Assembly (NCBI GenBank): GCA_963513935.1 | Contig: OY740772.1 | Location: 12,494,098-12,558,097 of the forward strand | Reading direction: 5' to 3' | Length of the DNA: 64,000 nt | Source: Aphrophora alni | Taxonomy: Eukaryota; Arthropoda; Insecta; Hemiptera; Aphrophoridae | In this document: piece after piece, positions 10,756-53,370 of the stretch | Position numbering within the stretch: the stretch's first letter is position 1 | Layout: every line of letters begins with the position of its first letter | Position numbers and translations under genes: made by a program | Notes under the pieces: generated by a model | Seen by the model: the letters and a program-made list of their open reading frames with translations, nothing else | Databases searched by the model: none | What the model was told of the DNA's origin: nothing

Positions 10756-10889
10756 CAGCCGCGATTACCAACTTACCCTTCTTATATTGGATAAGTCATA
10801 AGTGAATTTAAAAAAAAAAAATTTTTGATCAAGTAGAATGAATAGAATAAAACTCGAACACAATATCTCACAAAAAATTACGTTTATTT

Positions 10890-10931
10890 AATCAAACGCG
10901 TTTCAACGACAAAGTCGCCATCTTCAGTAAT
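10890..10931 (-). ncRNA. Candidate minimal hammerhead ribozyme (copy a)
   Basis: On the minus strand: ATTA, then CTGAAGA (fits the CUGANGA core), then stem II GGCGAC/GTCGTT with a TTT loop, then GAAAC, a GC dinucleotide and GTTTGATT. The AC...GU pairs form a two-base stem III, and TGAT pairs with ATTA (one wobble) as stem I. Tiny stem III is characteristic of hammerheads in Penelope-like retroelements. Cleavage is inferred, not shown. Confidence 0.65.
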
Positions 10932-11002
10932 GCATGAGCTACAATAACTAAACTATAACTCCAAGTTTAGTTATACTGTAGTTTAGTTATTGTAGCTCAT
11001 GT

Positions 11003-11044
11003 ATCACTGAGGATGGCAACTTTGTCGTTGAAACGCGTTTGATT
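11003..11044 (+). ncRNA. Candidate minimal hammerhead ribozyme (copy b)
   Basis: ATCA, CTGAGGA, stem II GGCAAC/GTCGTT (one A-C mismatch), GAAAC, GC, GTTTGATT. Stem I ATCA/TGAT pairs perfectly. It is the mirror partner of copy a, so transcripts of either strand carry one ribozyme-like core. Confidence 0.65.
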
Positions 11045-11156
11045 AAGTAAACGTAATTTTTGTGAGATCTTGAGTTCGAGTTTTTTCTATTTAATATTAT
11101 CTCAAACTTAATATTTATTTATAAGTACAAGATCTCACAAAAAATACGTTTATTTA

Positions 11157-11197
11157 ATCGAACGTGTTTCAACGAAAAAGTCGTCATCCTCAGTGAT
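11157..11197 (-). ncRNA. Candidate minimal hammerhead ribozyme (copy c)
   Basis: ATCA, CTGAGGA, stem II GACGA/TCGTT with a CTTTT loop, GAAAC, AC, GTTCGATT. Stem I has one mismatch next to the core, so this copy looks weaker than copy d. Confidence 0.55.
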
Positions 11198-11255
11198 ACA
11201 TGAGCTACAATAACTAAACTATAATTCCAGTTAGTTTAATTATTGTAGCTCATGT

Positions 11256-11296
11256 ATCACTGAGGAGGGCGACTTTGTCGTTGAAACGCGTTTGAT
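11256..11296 (+). ncRNA. Candidate minimal hammerhead ribozyme (copy d)
   Basis: The best copy: ATCA, CTGAGGA, stem II GGCGAC-TTT-GTCGTT, GAAAC, GC, GTTTGATT. All invariant core bases expected for a hammerhead (CUGANGA, GAAA and a U before the cleaved base) are present, and stems I and II pair. Confidence 0.7.
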
Positions 11297-11330
11297 TAGG
11301 TAAACGCAATTTTTGTGAGATCTTGTGTTA

Positions 11331-12039
11331 AATTTCTATTGTATCTAATATTATCTGATAAGTCAAGCTCAATATTTATTTATAAGTAGAATGAAGACAA
11401 ATTAATTTTCATTATAAGATTAATTTTCCGACTGCTCGTTATGTTTCATACTTAAGAGCGCATAGTATAGTAACACCCGCGTCCATATTACGGAACTCTC
11501 AACATTACATAGCTTGGCCTAGTTGGAAACAACCTTATTCCCTAACTTTCACAACGATGGTAGACGAATTTAGCCTAAACTGTGTAATAAACACAAAAAC
11601 AAGGATACAGACGTATTCAACTTATCAAAATAAATTGTGCAAAACATTACACAAACCACTTTTAGATACGCAGAAAAATAATTTTCCACCAAAGTGTTCT
11701 TGGTTGAACGATTTAACTGGCACACTGCCTTTGCGAACCTTCCAGTCGTATACGTTTAGAATAGAAAGTTGGTAAAGAGGAACGCTGCCGCGTTACTAAA
11801 CAAAATATAAAATGGATTCCCTTGTATCGGCAATTTTTAAACTAGGGAAAAGTAAATTACAAAAGTATAAAAACAGTTAAAAAAGTTCCTACTTTTATCC
11901 CCATAAGAAATATATAGGAAATATTAAAACAAAAAATTACCCCTTTCAAACCATACATTTATTTGTCGAAAAAAAGTAGTCCTGTTTGCTTCACTACAGC
12001 TTGACAAATACAAAATTAGTTTCCAGTTCTAAATGTATG
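11331..12039. other. Unassigned segment
   Basis: A 72-codon plus-strand frame at 11557-11775 has no recognisable domain and A+T-biased composition like its flanks. No RNA or repeat is recognised. Confidence 0.35.
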
Positions 12040-29620: not shown

Positions 29621-29789
29621 TAAGTTCTTTTTAAGAAGCCAGAAAGACAACAATTTATTATTGTGACAGACCTGGAAAACGGACGAAATTACTTACTTTG
29701 TAAGCAAGGCAGACGACATTGATGTTACAATGATATATAAACCATGGGGTAGGAGGAAACGTGGTCAATGGGGCAAGATTGATCAAGAA

Positions 29790-30618
29790 AAGTTGCTGCA
29801 GGATTTCTTGAAGATAGCCAGACGAACTTGGCGAGTAGAGCTTCCTGGGAGAATAATTCTTGAAGATAGCCAGCCGGACTTGACGAGTAAGAGCTTCCTG
29901 GGAGAATAATTCTTGAAGATAGCCAGACGGACTTGGCAAGTAATAGCTTCCTGGGAGAATAATTCTTGAAGATAGCCAGGCGAACTTGGCGAGTAAGAGC
30001 TTCCTGAGAGAATAATTCTTGAAGATAGCCAGACGGACTTGGCAAGTAATAGCTTCCTGGGAGAATAATTCTTGAAGATAGCCAGGCGAACTTGGCGAGT
30101 AAGAGCTTCCTGAGAGAATAATTCTTGAAGATAGCCAGACGGACTTGGCGAGTGTGAGCTTCCTGAGAGAATAATTCTTGAAGATAGCCAGACGGACTTG
30201 GCGAGTAAGAGCTTCCTGGGAGAATAATTCTTGAAGATAGCCAGCCGGACTTGACGAGTAAGAGCTTCCTGGGAGAATAATTCTTGAAGATAGCCAGACG
30301 GACTTGGCAAGTAATAGCTTCCTGGGAGAATAATTCTTGAAGATAGCCAGCCGGACTTGACGAGTAAGAGCTTCCTGGGAGAATAATTCTTGAAGATAGC
30401 CAGACGGACTTGGCAAGTAATAGCTTCCTGGGAGAATAATTCTTGAAGATAGCCAGGCGAACTTGGCGAGTAAGAGCTTCCTGAGAGAATAATTCTTGAA
30501 GATAGCCAGATGGACTTGGCGAGTGTGAGCTTCCTGAGAGAATAATTCTTGACGATAGCCAGGCGAACTTGGCAAGTAATAGCTTCCTGGGAGAATAATT
30601 CTTGAAGATAGCCAGACA
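29790..30618 (-). repeat. 53-bp tandem array, about 15 copies, inside a LINE relic
   Basis: The unit on the plus strand contains CTTGAAGATAGCCAG, GGACTTGGC(G/A)AGTAA(G/T)AG and CTTCCTGGGAGAATAATT. Spacing is 53 bp (one unit 52). Variants (ACGGACTTGGCAAGTAAT, GCGAACTTGGCGAGTAAG, CCGGACTTGACGAGTAAG) alternate, which shows higher-order duplication. Because 53 is not a multiple of 3 and the unit has no stop in any minus-strand phase, long frames (346 and 278 codons) run through it. They are a by-product of the array, not a gene. Confidence 0.9.
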
Positions 30619-30830
30619 TTAAAATACATGTACTTAGCTTTATCCTGATTTATTGCCAAATTAATTCCAACAAAGTACTGGTTTGTGACGTTAACCAATA
30701 AGAAGGCCTTTTGCTCTAAGCTTTTACTTGGAAAGTCAAAGTTGTATCGTCAGCAAACTGTATATATATTCGACAAGTAGTACAATCTAGTTTACTGTCG
30801 CAATCATTATACAAATTGTTACAATGCGAC
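30619..30830 (-). pseudogene. LINE reverse transcriptase catalytic segment
   Basis: Minus-strand reading from about 30830 gives an ND, then CRIYI, then FADDTTL at 30738-30757 (the [F/Y]ADD catalytic motif), then, after a frameshift, a block ending NLAINQDKAKYMYFN. This is the usual spacing between the catalytic box and the next conserved block of LINE reverse transcriptases. It stops exactly where the 53-bp array starts. Together with 29142-29620 it forms one broken element. Confidence 0.8.
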
Positions 30831-32149: not shown

Positions 32150-33073
32150 TATTAGATAATTCACTTCCAACGCAAAATGGGGGTTTGGGGTGAGGCTCAA
32201 AATTTTCATATGTAAAAACGTTCGAATTTGAAAGGTCTTGTTAAATAGAAAATAATTCTACAAACTAGAAGTCGTTACCTTACTCCAGTAAAAAATGGCG
32301 GCAGTTCAAATATTTAAAAAAAAAACTAATTTATTTCAGAATTTTCTCCATAAAAAATAATAAGAAGAAAATTATTGCAGCAAAAACTTTACTGTTATTT
32401 TATTCAAGTTTGACCAGAGGATTGTATTAACCCTACAATTTTAATTTTAAACTCAAAATGTATTTTTCCGTCACAAGTGAGAATAACTACAGATATCACC
32501 TTGTGTCCGAGTAGCTTATGACACGTCATGCCGACCGACTACTGACCGTGTACCATAACACAGAACACGTTGCGTTTTGATGTGAACGCATTACGTACTG
32601 ATGATGAAACACATGTTTTGAAACGCGTCATAATCTACGCAAACAATACACGACGGAAGCAAGGTAATATTCTCAATTGTTCTTGGTACAAGAGTTTAAA
32701 ATAATCTCGACAAAATAAATTTTCTGATTAAAATTAAAATTTTAGCACTACGCAACTTCCTGGTCAAATATGAATTAATAACAGTTTGTGTAATAATTTT
32801 TGTCTCGTTAATTTCTTTTAGATTCTGAAGTAAATTGAATTTTTGAATATTTTGATTGGCCGCCATTTTGGATTGAAAATAAGATAGCGACCGCTAGTTT
32901 CCGAAATTATTTTTAGTTTTTCCGAAATTATTTTTAAAAAAACATCATTTTGTGAGTTAATTTACTTTCAAATACGAAAACATATTTGTTTTATTCCAAA
33001 AAACATTTTAAAACTTTCAGCTTTCTACCTTTTAAAAAATATTTCACAATTCCGGGACTTTTTTTACAGCCAG
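32150..33073. other. Fold-back-like DNA with a hammerhead-like motif
   Basis: AAAAATGGCGGCAGTTCAAA (about 32290) and GGCCGCCATTTTGG (about 32860) sit in opposite orientation, as in the fold-back elements, but full arm pairing was not confirmed. A Penelope-type hammerhead-like motif is at 32590-32640. Confidence 0.4.
32590..32640 (+). ncRNA. Hammerhead-like motif (copy e)
   Basis: CTGATGA at 32598-32604, stem II AAAC/GTTT with an ACAT loop, GAAAC at 32620-32624, then GCGTC. All core boxes fit a minimal Penelope-type hammerhead. Stem I is poorly paired (ATTACGTA against ATAATCTACG), so activity is doubtful. Confidence 0.5.
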
Positions 33074-41929: not shown

Positions 41930-42745
41930 TTGTGTCTATGTCTCTTTATCTCTGTCTCTGTATCTCTGTCTCTGTACCTCTGTCTCTGTATCTCTGTCTC
42001 TGAGTCTATGTATCTGTATCTTTGTCTCTATATCTCTGTCTCTGTATCTCTGTCTCTGTCTCTGTATCTCTGTCTCTGAGTCTATGTATCTGTATCTTTT
42101 TCTCTATATCTTTGTCTCTATATCTCTGTCTCTGTATCTCTGTCTCTGTATCTCTGTCTCTGTACCTCTGTCTCTGTATCTCTGTCTCTGAGTCTATGTA
42201 TCTGTATCTTTGTCTCTATATCTCTGTCTCTGTATATATGTCTCTGTATCTCTGTCTCTGTACCTCTGTCTCTGTATCTCTGTCTCTGTATATATGTCTC
42301 TGTATATATGTCTGTTTCTCTGTGTCTATGTCTCTCTGTCTCTGTCTCTCTGTCTCTGTATCTCTGTCTCTGCGTATATGTCTCTGTATGTCTATGTTTA
42401 TGTCTCTCTACCTCTGTATCTCTGTCTTTATATCTCTGCCTCTGTGTATATGTCTGTTTCTCTGTGTCTATGTCTCTCTGTCTCTGTATCTCTGTCCCTG
42501 TGTATGTCTCTGTCTCTGTATCTCTGTCTCTGTGTCTGTGTGCACGCAAGTATATTATTATTATTATTCTGTTTCTCTGTCTTTATATCTCTGCCTCTGT
42601 GTATATGTCTGTTTCTCTGTGTCTATGTCTCTCTATCTCTGCCTCTCTGTCTCTGTACCTCTGTCCCTGTGTATGTCTCTGTATGTCTCTGTCTCTGTAT
42701 CTCTGTCTCTGTGTCTGTGTGCACGCAAGTATATTATTATTATTT
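41930..42745 (+). repeat. Polypyrimidine CTGTCT/CTGTAT simple-sequence array
   Basis: It is made of TCTCTGTCTCTGTATCTC-type units with ATATATGTCTCTG variants. A larger duplication places GTGTGCACGCAAGTATATTA and a run of ATT at about 42537 and again at about 42716, spaced about 180 bp. All frames are open on both strands (up to 251 codons of Ser/Leu/Cys/Tyr/Val-type repeats). These frames are an artefact of the repeat and not a protein gene. Confidence 0.95.
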
Positions 42746-43605
42746 TGTTAATTTCTTCGCTTAATCTTTCTTTTTAGTGTTTGTTCTTTTATAATTTAAT
42801 TACTCCCATAATACGTCTGATCTTTTATTTTAGTTGTTATTTCATTACTGCGTTTATGTACCCTCCTTTCGTTACCCTTGAAGCTGCATTTATTATTTTC
42901 ATTCTTGTAATTAAAATATTCCAATGTTATATATTTTCTTTTCAGTAGATATTTATCATGTATTATTTATCACATTATGTTTGTATAATTTATTTTGATG
43001 AATGTTAAATTTTAATATAATTACTTTTACACATAAGTCAATTTTTATTTCTTTCCATAAATTTCTAGTGTTGGATGAAAGAATTGTATTATTTGTTGTG
43101 TTGTATATTTTGAAAAAGGGAATAAAAATAAATTATTTTTTAAAAAATAAAAAACAGATTTTGTCGAAAACTCAATATTTGGGGACAGCTGCTATACAGG
43201 GTAAAAATACTTTAAATATCGTCTCTATAGGTTTCACAAATTTTACTACTTTGATGTAACAAAATTGGTTTTAATCCTCTCAAAAATGCCGGTTCAGAAA
43301 TTATTTGTAAAAAAAAACCTAGGAGCTCAATATATTGCGGCGCTCAACATCCATCCGGCTCCTAGTCAAAAGCGTGAACTCGTCTTATTAGCTACCTAAA
43401 TGTAGATAATATTCGTAAATCAGCTGACTTTTCTTTCAGTGACCTGGATATCAGCTCGTTAGCCGACCCTAATGCTGAGTTCTGTTGCACAAATTAACTA
43501 CTTTACGGTTCGTAGATAAGACGAACCGTTGCGACTTCTTTATTGAGTAACTATTGTGTAGCCTATCTAGGGCGTTCAACTTCTAAACCATAAGATATCG
43601 TATCA
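42746..43605. other. Unassigned segment
   Basis: A+T-rich, with an 85-codon frame at 43002-43259 that shows no domain. TACAGGGTAAAAATACT at about 43195 resembles a fold-back terminus; no partner found. Confidence 0.35.
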
Positions 43606-52393: not shown

Positions 52394-53370
52394 AATATAT
52401 ACAGGATAATAGGTGTGCCGATTATTTTACATGGAAAGTATGATTTTTTTTTTTTTTATGGTTTTAGTTTCTACAAATAATTTTAAGACATTTTTATGTT
52501 TGTGTATTTTTTAATACATCCAACCATTTAGAAGCTACAGATGCTCAAAATAGGGGGAAACAAGATTTTAAGCGCCAGATGTCCATTTTCTGTACTTAAA
52601 ACAGTCGAACCGAGATTAAAATTGGAACGTAGAGTATGATGTAAAGAAAACTACTAGATATTTGAAAATCACACCTAAGGCTTCTTTTAGAATTATTTAA
52701 TGCAGGTTCTTTTTATGACAAAATAACTCCATACTTTGAATAAATCTAAATTATAAATAACTTTGAAACAAACATTTTTGTATTTACACTACAATAATGT
52801 ATAACGTTATTGGTGGACGATTCCTTTCACAAGTACTTATTACTATTATGATTATATTATTATTAAAAAAACACAAAACATAATAAACACATCGGATAAA
52901 AGAATCCATAAAAATTACTTTTACTTCAATTTTTAATCAATTCACTGAATATAACCAACCACAGCCTGAGTAACAAAACTGTTGATTTTCAAACTTCTAG
53001 TAATTTTTATTACACTATACACTATCTACGTTCCAATTTTAGACTGTTTAAATGGACCTATAAAAAAATCTAAAATCTTACTTCACTACTTTGAGTCTGT
53101 GTAGCTCCTAAACAGTTCAATATATCGAAAAATACACAAGAATAAAACAGCCGTGTGTAGAATTTAAAACCATTATAAAAAAATAGGTATTTCTATAAGA
53201 ATATTTAAATTTGGCCGCCATACTGGAAAAATGCCTGATGGTATCAACATTTTAAAAACCCCCAAATAAGACGACAAAAACTTCAGTGGAGTTGTCATTT
53301 GATTTTTTTAAATATATCAACTACTTTCCACGTAAAACCCTGGTACGCTTATATTAATTACCCAGAATAT
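52394..53370. mobile_element. Fold-back element, about 975 bp
   Basis: The left arm TATACAGGATAATAGGTGTG, TTTTACATGGAAAGTATGA, ATCCAACCATTTAGAAGCTA and AATTGGAACGTAGAGTATGA is mirrored by the right arm CTACGTTCCAATTTTAGACT, GTGTAGCTCCTAAACAGTTC, ACTTTCCACGTAAAACCCTG and CCAGAATATACAGTGTGTCC. Pairing extends almost to the centre (about 52870). GGCCGCCATACTGG is in the right arm only. Confidence 0.85.

Follow-up and report, generated by a model that had tools for sequence, protein, structure and literature searches.

Penelope-like elements (PLEs) are already known to carry hammerhead ribozymes (HHRs) (PMC6155905, PMC7229834). Poseidon_Ac (PAc) is a PLE of the Penelope/Poseidon clade from the green anole, and PMC11167929 reports that its protein cuts and extends both DNA strands, with reverse transcription initiating inside the RNA at two adjacent sites. 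The genomic 'tail' of PAc corresponds to the 30-40 nt stretch between these two start sites, and its insertion in vitro is reported to be unaffected in ribozyme mutants. In the account of the Adineta vaga Penelope element (PMC3846280), inverted pLTRs are described, most frequently head-to-head, with a 31-bp tail optionally present on one of the inverted pLTRs, target-site duplications (TSDs) of 8-10 bp and a putative TATA box within the pLTR; HHRs are without mention (0 occurrences) in the main text of that paper. Metazoan retrozymes, as presented in PMC7229834, are small non-coding retroelements with type I HHRs, for which PLEs have been proposed as helpers.

The window, i.e. the whole stretch of 64,000 nucleotides from Aphrophora alni that was analysed, includes two head-to-head palindromes at 10842-11385 holding four HHR cores, a to d. 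All four had been recognized in the initial annotation and are present with a length of 41 nt each. The arms of palindrome a/b measure 83 nt with a complementarity of 94%, and those of palindrome c/d 95 nt with 89%. Positions within the arms refer to a 158-nt unit (U1-U158) defined from genomic copies, and the predicted cuts are placed according to the HHR consensus.

10831..10842, no strand: left TSD AAGTAGAATGAA, a 12-bp exact repeat at the outer edges of the a-d cluster
10842..10959, minus strand: arm a, pLTR-derived unit U1-117 with short 3' end, from alignment to the 158-nt unit
10891..10931, minus strand: HHR core a, predicted cut 10895/10894 (model R1, E 5.5e-9)
10960..10978, no strand: 19-nt a/b junction with a partial copy of the 5' end of the unit, from reading of the sequence
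10979..11124, plus strand: arm b, unit U5-158, long 3' end with tail
11003..11043, plus strand: HHR core b, predicted cut 11039/11040 (model R1, E 4.5e-8)
11127..11224, minus strand: arm c, unit U2-99, abutting the tail of b
11157..11197, minus strand: HHR core c, predicted cut 11161/11160 (model R1, E 7.5e-8)
11232..11385, plus strand: arm d, unit U5-158, long 3' end with tail
11256..11296, plus strand: HHR core d, predicted cut 11292/11293 (model R1, E 9.3e-8)
11384..11395, no strand: right TSD AAGTAGAATGAA, its first bases overlapping the end of arm d

Arm c is probably a second insertion, nested into the tail of arm b.

The inverted-pLTR arrangement of the window is one known for PLEs from the accounts cited above. 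Like the Adineta vaga Penelope, the family combines head-to-head inverted pLTRs, a one-sided tail, TSDs and a TATA box in the pLTR; unlike in that account, the pairs consist here of parts of pLTRs only, and the tail rule derives from counts over numerous copies. The likeness with PAc, as far as it is described in PMC11167929, lies in an HHR located at the pLTR-ORF junction with an ATG opening stem II, the cut falling 26 bp after the ATG in PAc and, in the present family, 27 nt from the first base of the ATG. Unlike in PAc, the frame starting at this ATG reads as closed by a TGA after nine codons, so that the ATG in stem II is not clearly the start codon of a PLE; moreover, nearly all scored copies are promoterless pieces, and most genomic pairs use two 3' ends, one per arm. 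Whereas metazoan retrozymes are described as units of about 300 bp that are repeated in tandem and bear canonical HHRs (PMC7229834), the family consists of dispersed 158-nt units with minimal HHRs, mostly arranged head-to-head, and no tandem 150-450 bp units with a type I HHR were found in the flanks of the 40 loci picked by arm b.

The CTGANGA..GAAAC motif occurs five times in the window for 0.57 expected, a number reached in 0/100 shuffles, and four of the five occurrences are cores a-d. The cores display the CUGANGA and GAAA boxes, stems I and II and H17 before stem I, with mismatches in b and c. Stem II comprises 6 standard pairs, two of them G.U, in cores a and d, every stem pair of core d being standard, whereas core b has a single A x C mismatch in stem II and core c has one C x U mismatch in stem II and another mismatch at the first pair of stem I. 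Stem III has two pairs capped by a loop of two bases. CTGANGA is separated from stem II by an extra base, which is T in a, b and c and G in d. The boxes and stems of the initial annotation are borne out, but not its placement of stem II directly after CTGA(A/G)GA, and a strict structure scan imposing this placement found none of the four cores because of the extra base. Small HHR variants of PLEs were reportedly described by Cervera and de la Pena in 2014 and by Lunse, Weinberg and Breaker in 2017. These variants reportedly have the same minimal hammerhead core, from which the family of the window may differ in the extra base that separates A9 from stem II and in UU instead of UC before the cut.

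The initial annotation had also named the lack of any covariance-model hit as a result that would count against it, and this is literally what Rfam returns: its hammerhead families do not match the window cores even at E up to 10, give nothing at gathering score in six loci holding six other cores of this type, and, around the core of L057, detect no hammerhead even when E-values up to 10 are allowed. The two-base loop of stem III and the extra base probably fall outside the Rfam hammerhead models. A lineage-specific covariance model, R1, does match; it was built from five of the seven non-window cores aligned below, all from the same genome, with the closest relatives, L041 and L075, excluded. 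Its best hits are the four window cores, with rough E-values from 5.5e-9 to 9.3e-8, the next hit standing at a similarly rough 6.5e-5.

Pairing was assessed in an alignment of the four cores with seven cores outside the unit of the window, retrieved as CTGANGA..GAAAC motifs from 80 loci. Among the 12 hits, five variants of the window's own unit, arm c included, were left out. Two further motifs, in L019 and L021, escaped this stricter pattern and are likewise outside the alignment. In this alignment, 86.7% of 128 cells are paired vs 70.2% after shuffling (0/500), 9/12 pairs change on both sides (1/500 shuffles), and slid versions reach at most 51.3%. As the search pattern imposed the boxes on the seven non-window cores, only the stem pairing is independent evidence. 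As a monomer, the unit folds no better than its shuffles (z 0.28).

Further HHR-like cores are found in the window and elsewhere in the genome. A fifth one, at 32594-32634 (+) of the window (CTGATGATG..GAAACGCGTC, R1 E 6.5e-5), has a stem II of about 5 bp and an unpaired stem I, and is possibly the remnant of a different PLE family. Other families are represented by the cores of L057 (2176-2216, -), L051 (223-263, -), L015 (800-839, +), L011 (2027-2064, -) and L021 (2075-2115, +), in which an extra T after CTGANGA gives an ATG. In the cores of L041 and L075, a G replaces this T. Besides these cores, the window also includes, at 29658-30698 (-), an open frame made of a tandemly repeated segment of about 50 aa (WLSSRIILPGSYY...) and, at 42022-42777, a low-complexity repeat with several open frames.

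Used as a query against the 1.70-Gb genome, arm b gives 54 matches, and the best 40 of 1486 first-look candidates were scored. These copies define the dispersed unit of about 158 nt, in which the CTGA stands at U33 and the predicted cut follows U65. Two kinds of 3' ends are observed, short ones mostly at U111-130 and long ones mostly at U151-158, separated by an optional tail of about 38 nt, a size within the 30-40 nt expected of a pLTR tail. At 52882-52930 (-), the window shows a further, weak match, to U68-113, which may be an old fragment of the unit; its score is 42.5, whereas the best control on the reversed window reaches 39. An A at U44 (CAAC) was considered as a subfamily marker and rejected, as it fits CpG loss among copies selected for their resemblance to arm b; in the promoter loci, U43 is T in 5/39 and U44 is A in 5/39.

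A TATA promoter precedes the unit in L006 and L007, and a query made of it gives 42 matches, L007 itself included, the unit-containing promoter loci being L031-L060. In two of the 17 promoter loci measured, L039 and L053, U1 lies 33 nt after the TATA box, a usual distance for a transcription start site. In the remaining 15, an extra GTTA-type 5' end is absent and the match to the unit begins at about U5-7, roughly 26 nt after the TATA box. Among the 40 anchors picked by arm b, the promoter continues upstream of the unit in only 2, the other 38 being promoterless.

The pLTR of a PLE thus includes this unit. The initial annotation had called the cores minimal hammerheads of a version known from Penelope-like retroelements and had advised searching the genome for a full element with RT and GIY-YIG domains. 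At L038, a frame of this kind is open beside the unit and displays the YVDD motif of an RT together with a GIY-YIG motif, and part of one, with a GIY-YIG motif, is found at L034. Both frames lie on the same strand as the pLTR and end upstream of it, with 79% identity to each other over 187 aa. They have 179 homologues and, among the 120 listed, many carry PF00078 (RVT_1), PF01541 (GIY-YIG) and PF26215, the named sources being mostly insects such as Homalodisca, Aromia and Molorchus. The Pfam matches of the frame fragments themselves are below curated cut-offs, and a comparison by sequence with solved structures gives no match. An ORF with telomerase-like RT and GIY-YIG adjoins the pLTR at L038, and the GIY-YIG part of one does so at L034, both outside the window. 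Inverted copies with TSDs are also observed, the TSDs in a minority of pairs. As the unit with its TATA promoter adjoins PLE coding sequence, the arms of the window are PLE pLTR fragments, and the unit is presumably the 5' part of the PLE transcript.

Head-to-head pairing was counted in three sets of loci. The first set includes the 40 loci picked by arm b (L001-L030 and L061-L070), 28 of which hold 29 head-to-head pairs while 12 have no detected partner. The tail is confined to one of the two arms in 25/29 pairs (3/20000 permutations as extreme), the exceptions being L005, L010 and L018, with both arms short, and L009, with both long; the arms counted as short include some ending well before the short site (L001 c at U99, L011 at U78, L018 at U20, L019 at U70 and L020 at U103). 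The second set consists of 39 promoter-query loci absent from the first, of which L033 and L046 share flanks, and displays one long and one short arm in 12/12 pairs found (36/20000 permutations). Altogether, the tail is on one arm only in 37/41 head-to-head pairs of these two sets. In the third set, 39 anchors were retrieved with a query located inside the 3' portion of arm d, their tails being present by selection. A partner at a score of 36 or more was found for 27/39 anchors; 25 of these partners lack the tail, although six of them end well before the short site, one has it and one is between, and 19/27 end at U111-127. Two loci stand apart: L103 has an end at U139 matching neither class, and in L098, upstream of the unit, an apparent short end of a unit is fused to a copy that begins at U62 and has the same orientation, a junction that contrasts with the head-to-head rule.

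A second rule concerns arm length. In 11/12 pairs of the second set, the short 3' end belongs to the arm that is longer and bears the promoter, with L077 as the exception. This rule is less sure, as the 15 truncated arms of the first set are divided into 8 long-ended and 7 short-ended ones. The geometry of the first-set pairs is variable, since an arm starts beyond U8 in 15/29 and spacers extend from slightly overlapping alignments to 173 nt. TSD scores of at least 10 are reached by 7/29 pairs vs 14/810 mismatched pairs, although among these seven, L001 c/d is confounded by the tail of arm b itself, and in L020 and L063 the repeat is partly inside the called arm end. The identity between arms is 0.896 within pairs vs 0.894 between pairs (310/2000 permutations as high), and 0.921 vs 0.917 without CpG sites (86/2000). 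The arms of one pair being hardly more alike than arms of different pairs, this comparison gives no clear sign of a common template.

The locus probably results from two insertions, one nested in the other, of 'strong-stop' cDNAs derived from the 5' end of a Penelope-like retroelement. Transcription would start at about the 5' end of the unit, and the PLE protein would nick both target strands. Each of the two internal RT sites on the RNA would then start one cDNA, one per target strand, and both cDNAs would be extended toward the 5' end of the RNA and joined there with short filler, generating a head-to-head palindrome in which the HHR would be copied as part of the cDNA template. This strong-stop reading fits the fact that so few anchors reach the promoter. 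The pairs with one long and one short arm suggest two cDNAs begun at two RT start sites, one per target strand, an interpretation that combines published two-site initiation and two-strand extension with inverted pLTRs, its move from counts to a mechanism being inferential. An argument against it is that PMC11167929 reports no strand difference in start site in vitro. More tentatively, the inner RT site may prime one strand and give the longer cDNA, the outer site, about 38 nt downstream, giving one that is more often short, with cleavage or the folded HHR limiting the template; the suggestion that the HHR limits template length in vivo comes from cDNAs ending near the cleavage site.

These 5' ends were examined in the third set, in which any 5' end up to U66 is equally eligible. 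The 39 anchors start at U1-U9 (23), U11-U38 (9) or U62-U65 (7), and none starts between U39 and U61. Seven of the 17 anchors starting at U9-U66 fall at U62-66, for which p is 0.0003 under a uniform spread and about 0.013 when any 5-nt window is allowed. The clustered ends precede the predicted cut by 1-4 nt, none being exactly on it. A weaker excess is seen in 33 partner arms, with 3 in U62-66 (p 0.12), 5 in U61-70 (p 0.10) and 7 in U62-71 (p 0.01), these windows having been chosen after the data were seen. L010 (overlapping arms), L019 (other subfamily) and L046 (flank common with L033) were dropped from this count, and L118 (U7) was treated as not truncated. The cluster near the predicted cut is a possible footprint of the ribozyme and as such a lead, but the ends could have been placed instead by filler bases, by RT stalling at the folded ribozyme or by a short hairpin at U62-79. 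For PAc, PMC11167929 reports no RNA-seq reads beginning or ending at the HHR cut.

Other origins of the pairs can be weighed against the same counts. Self-priming, already proposed for the head-to-head repeats of the rotifer Penelope (PMC3846280), would make the second arm a copy of the first, through fold-back of the cDNA or a self-primed antisense transcript. The arms of L096, which meet around a short perfect hairpin from U65 to U73 with no spacer, are in keeping with it, as is the marginally higher likeness of same-pair arms once CpG sites are removed. However, a fixed 3' end of the second arm is not expected from such a process, and short ends cluster mostly near U111-130 in all three sets; over all sites, same-pair arms are not clearly more alike, even if the age of the copies may blur this signal. 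Self-priming is rather unlikely here. Still less probable is a non-autonomous retrozyme-like element with its own self-cleaved or circular RNA, using PLE proteins only for mobilisation. Promoterless units are indeed numerous, with 877-1486 unscored first-look candidates per search in addition to the scored anchors, the unit includes a complete small HHR, and animal retrozymes with HHRs exist (PMC7229834), but the 1-1.5 kb flanks of the 40 first-set loci hold no array of whole units. Moreover, in the two loci whose 5' duplication matches, the fixed 5' end fits run-off at the start site of the pLTR, and such run-off makes a separate element unnecessary. One partial direct copy of the unit is seen in L066.

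The initial annotation had imagined the locus as a regulatory RNA switch or processing unit in which hairpin formation competes with ribozyme cleavage. Any transcript crossing the window locus would indeed contain complementary arms, but the pair geometry varies among copies in spacers, in truncated arms and in loci with no detected partner, and no head-to-head ribozyme switch was found in the literature on PLEs, hammerheads and inverted pLTRs searched by title and mainly outside subscription journals. This idea is accordingly unsupported and highly improbable. A fold-back DNA transposon or MITE carrying the motif by chance would account for inverted arms and TSDs, yet the outer ends of the two arms are usually unlike, one long and one short, the arms are 5'-truncated, and PLE parents exist in which the unit is the pLTR beside an RT/GIY-YIG frame, so that such an origin is highly improbable. 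The head-to-head pairing is most likely a footprint of the insertion of the element rather than an RNA switch.

In the literature represented by PMC11167929 and PMC3846280, as far as these sources go, both the role of the HHR in PLEs and the origin of inverted inserts are unsettled. Genomes rich in short paired inserts make both questions testable by counting. Any PLE-rich genome would be predicted to show the rule of one long and one short arm, as well as a clustering of 5' ends close to the predicted cut.
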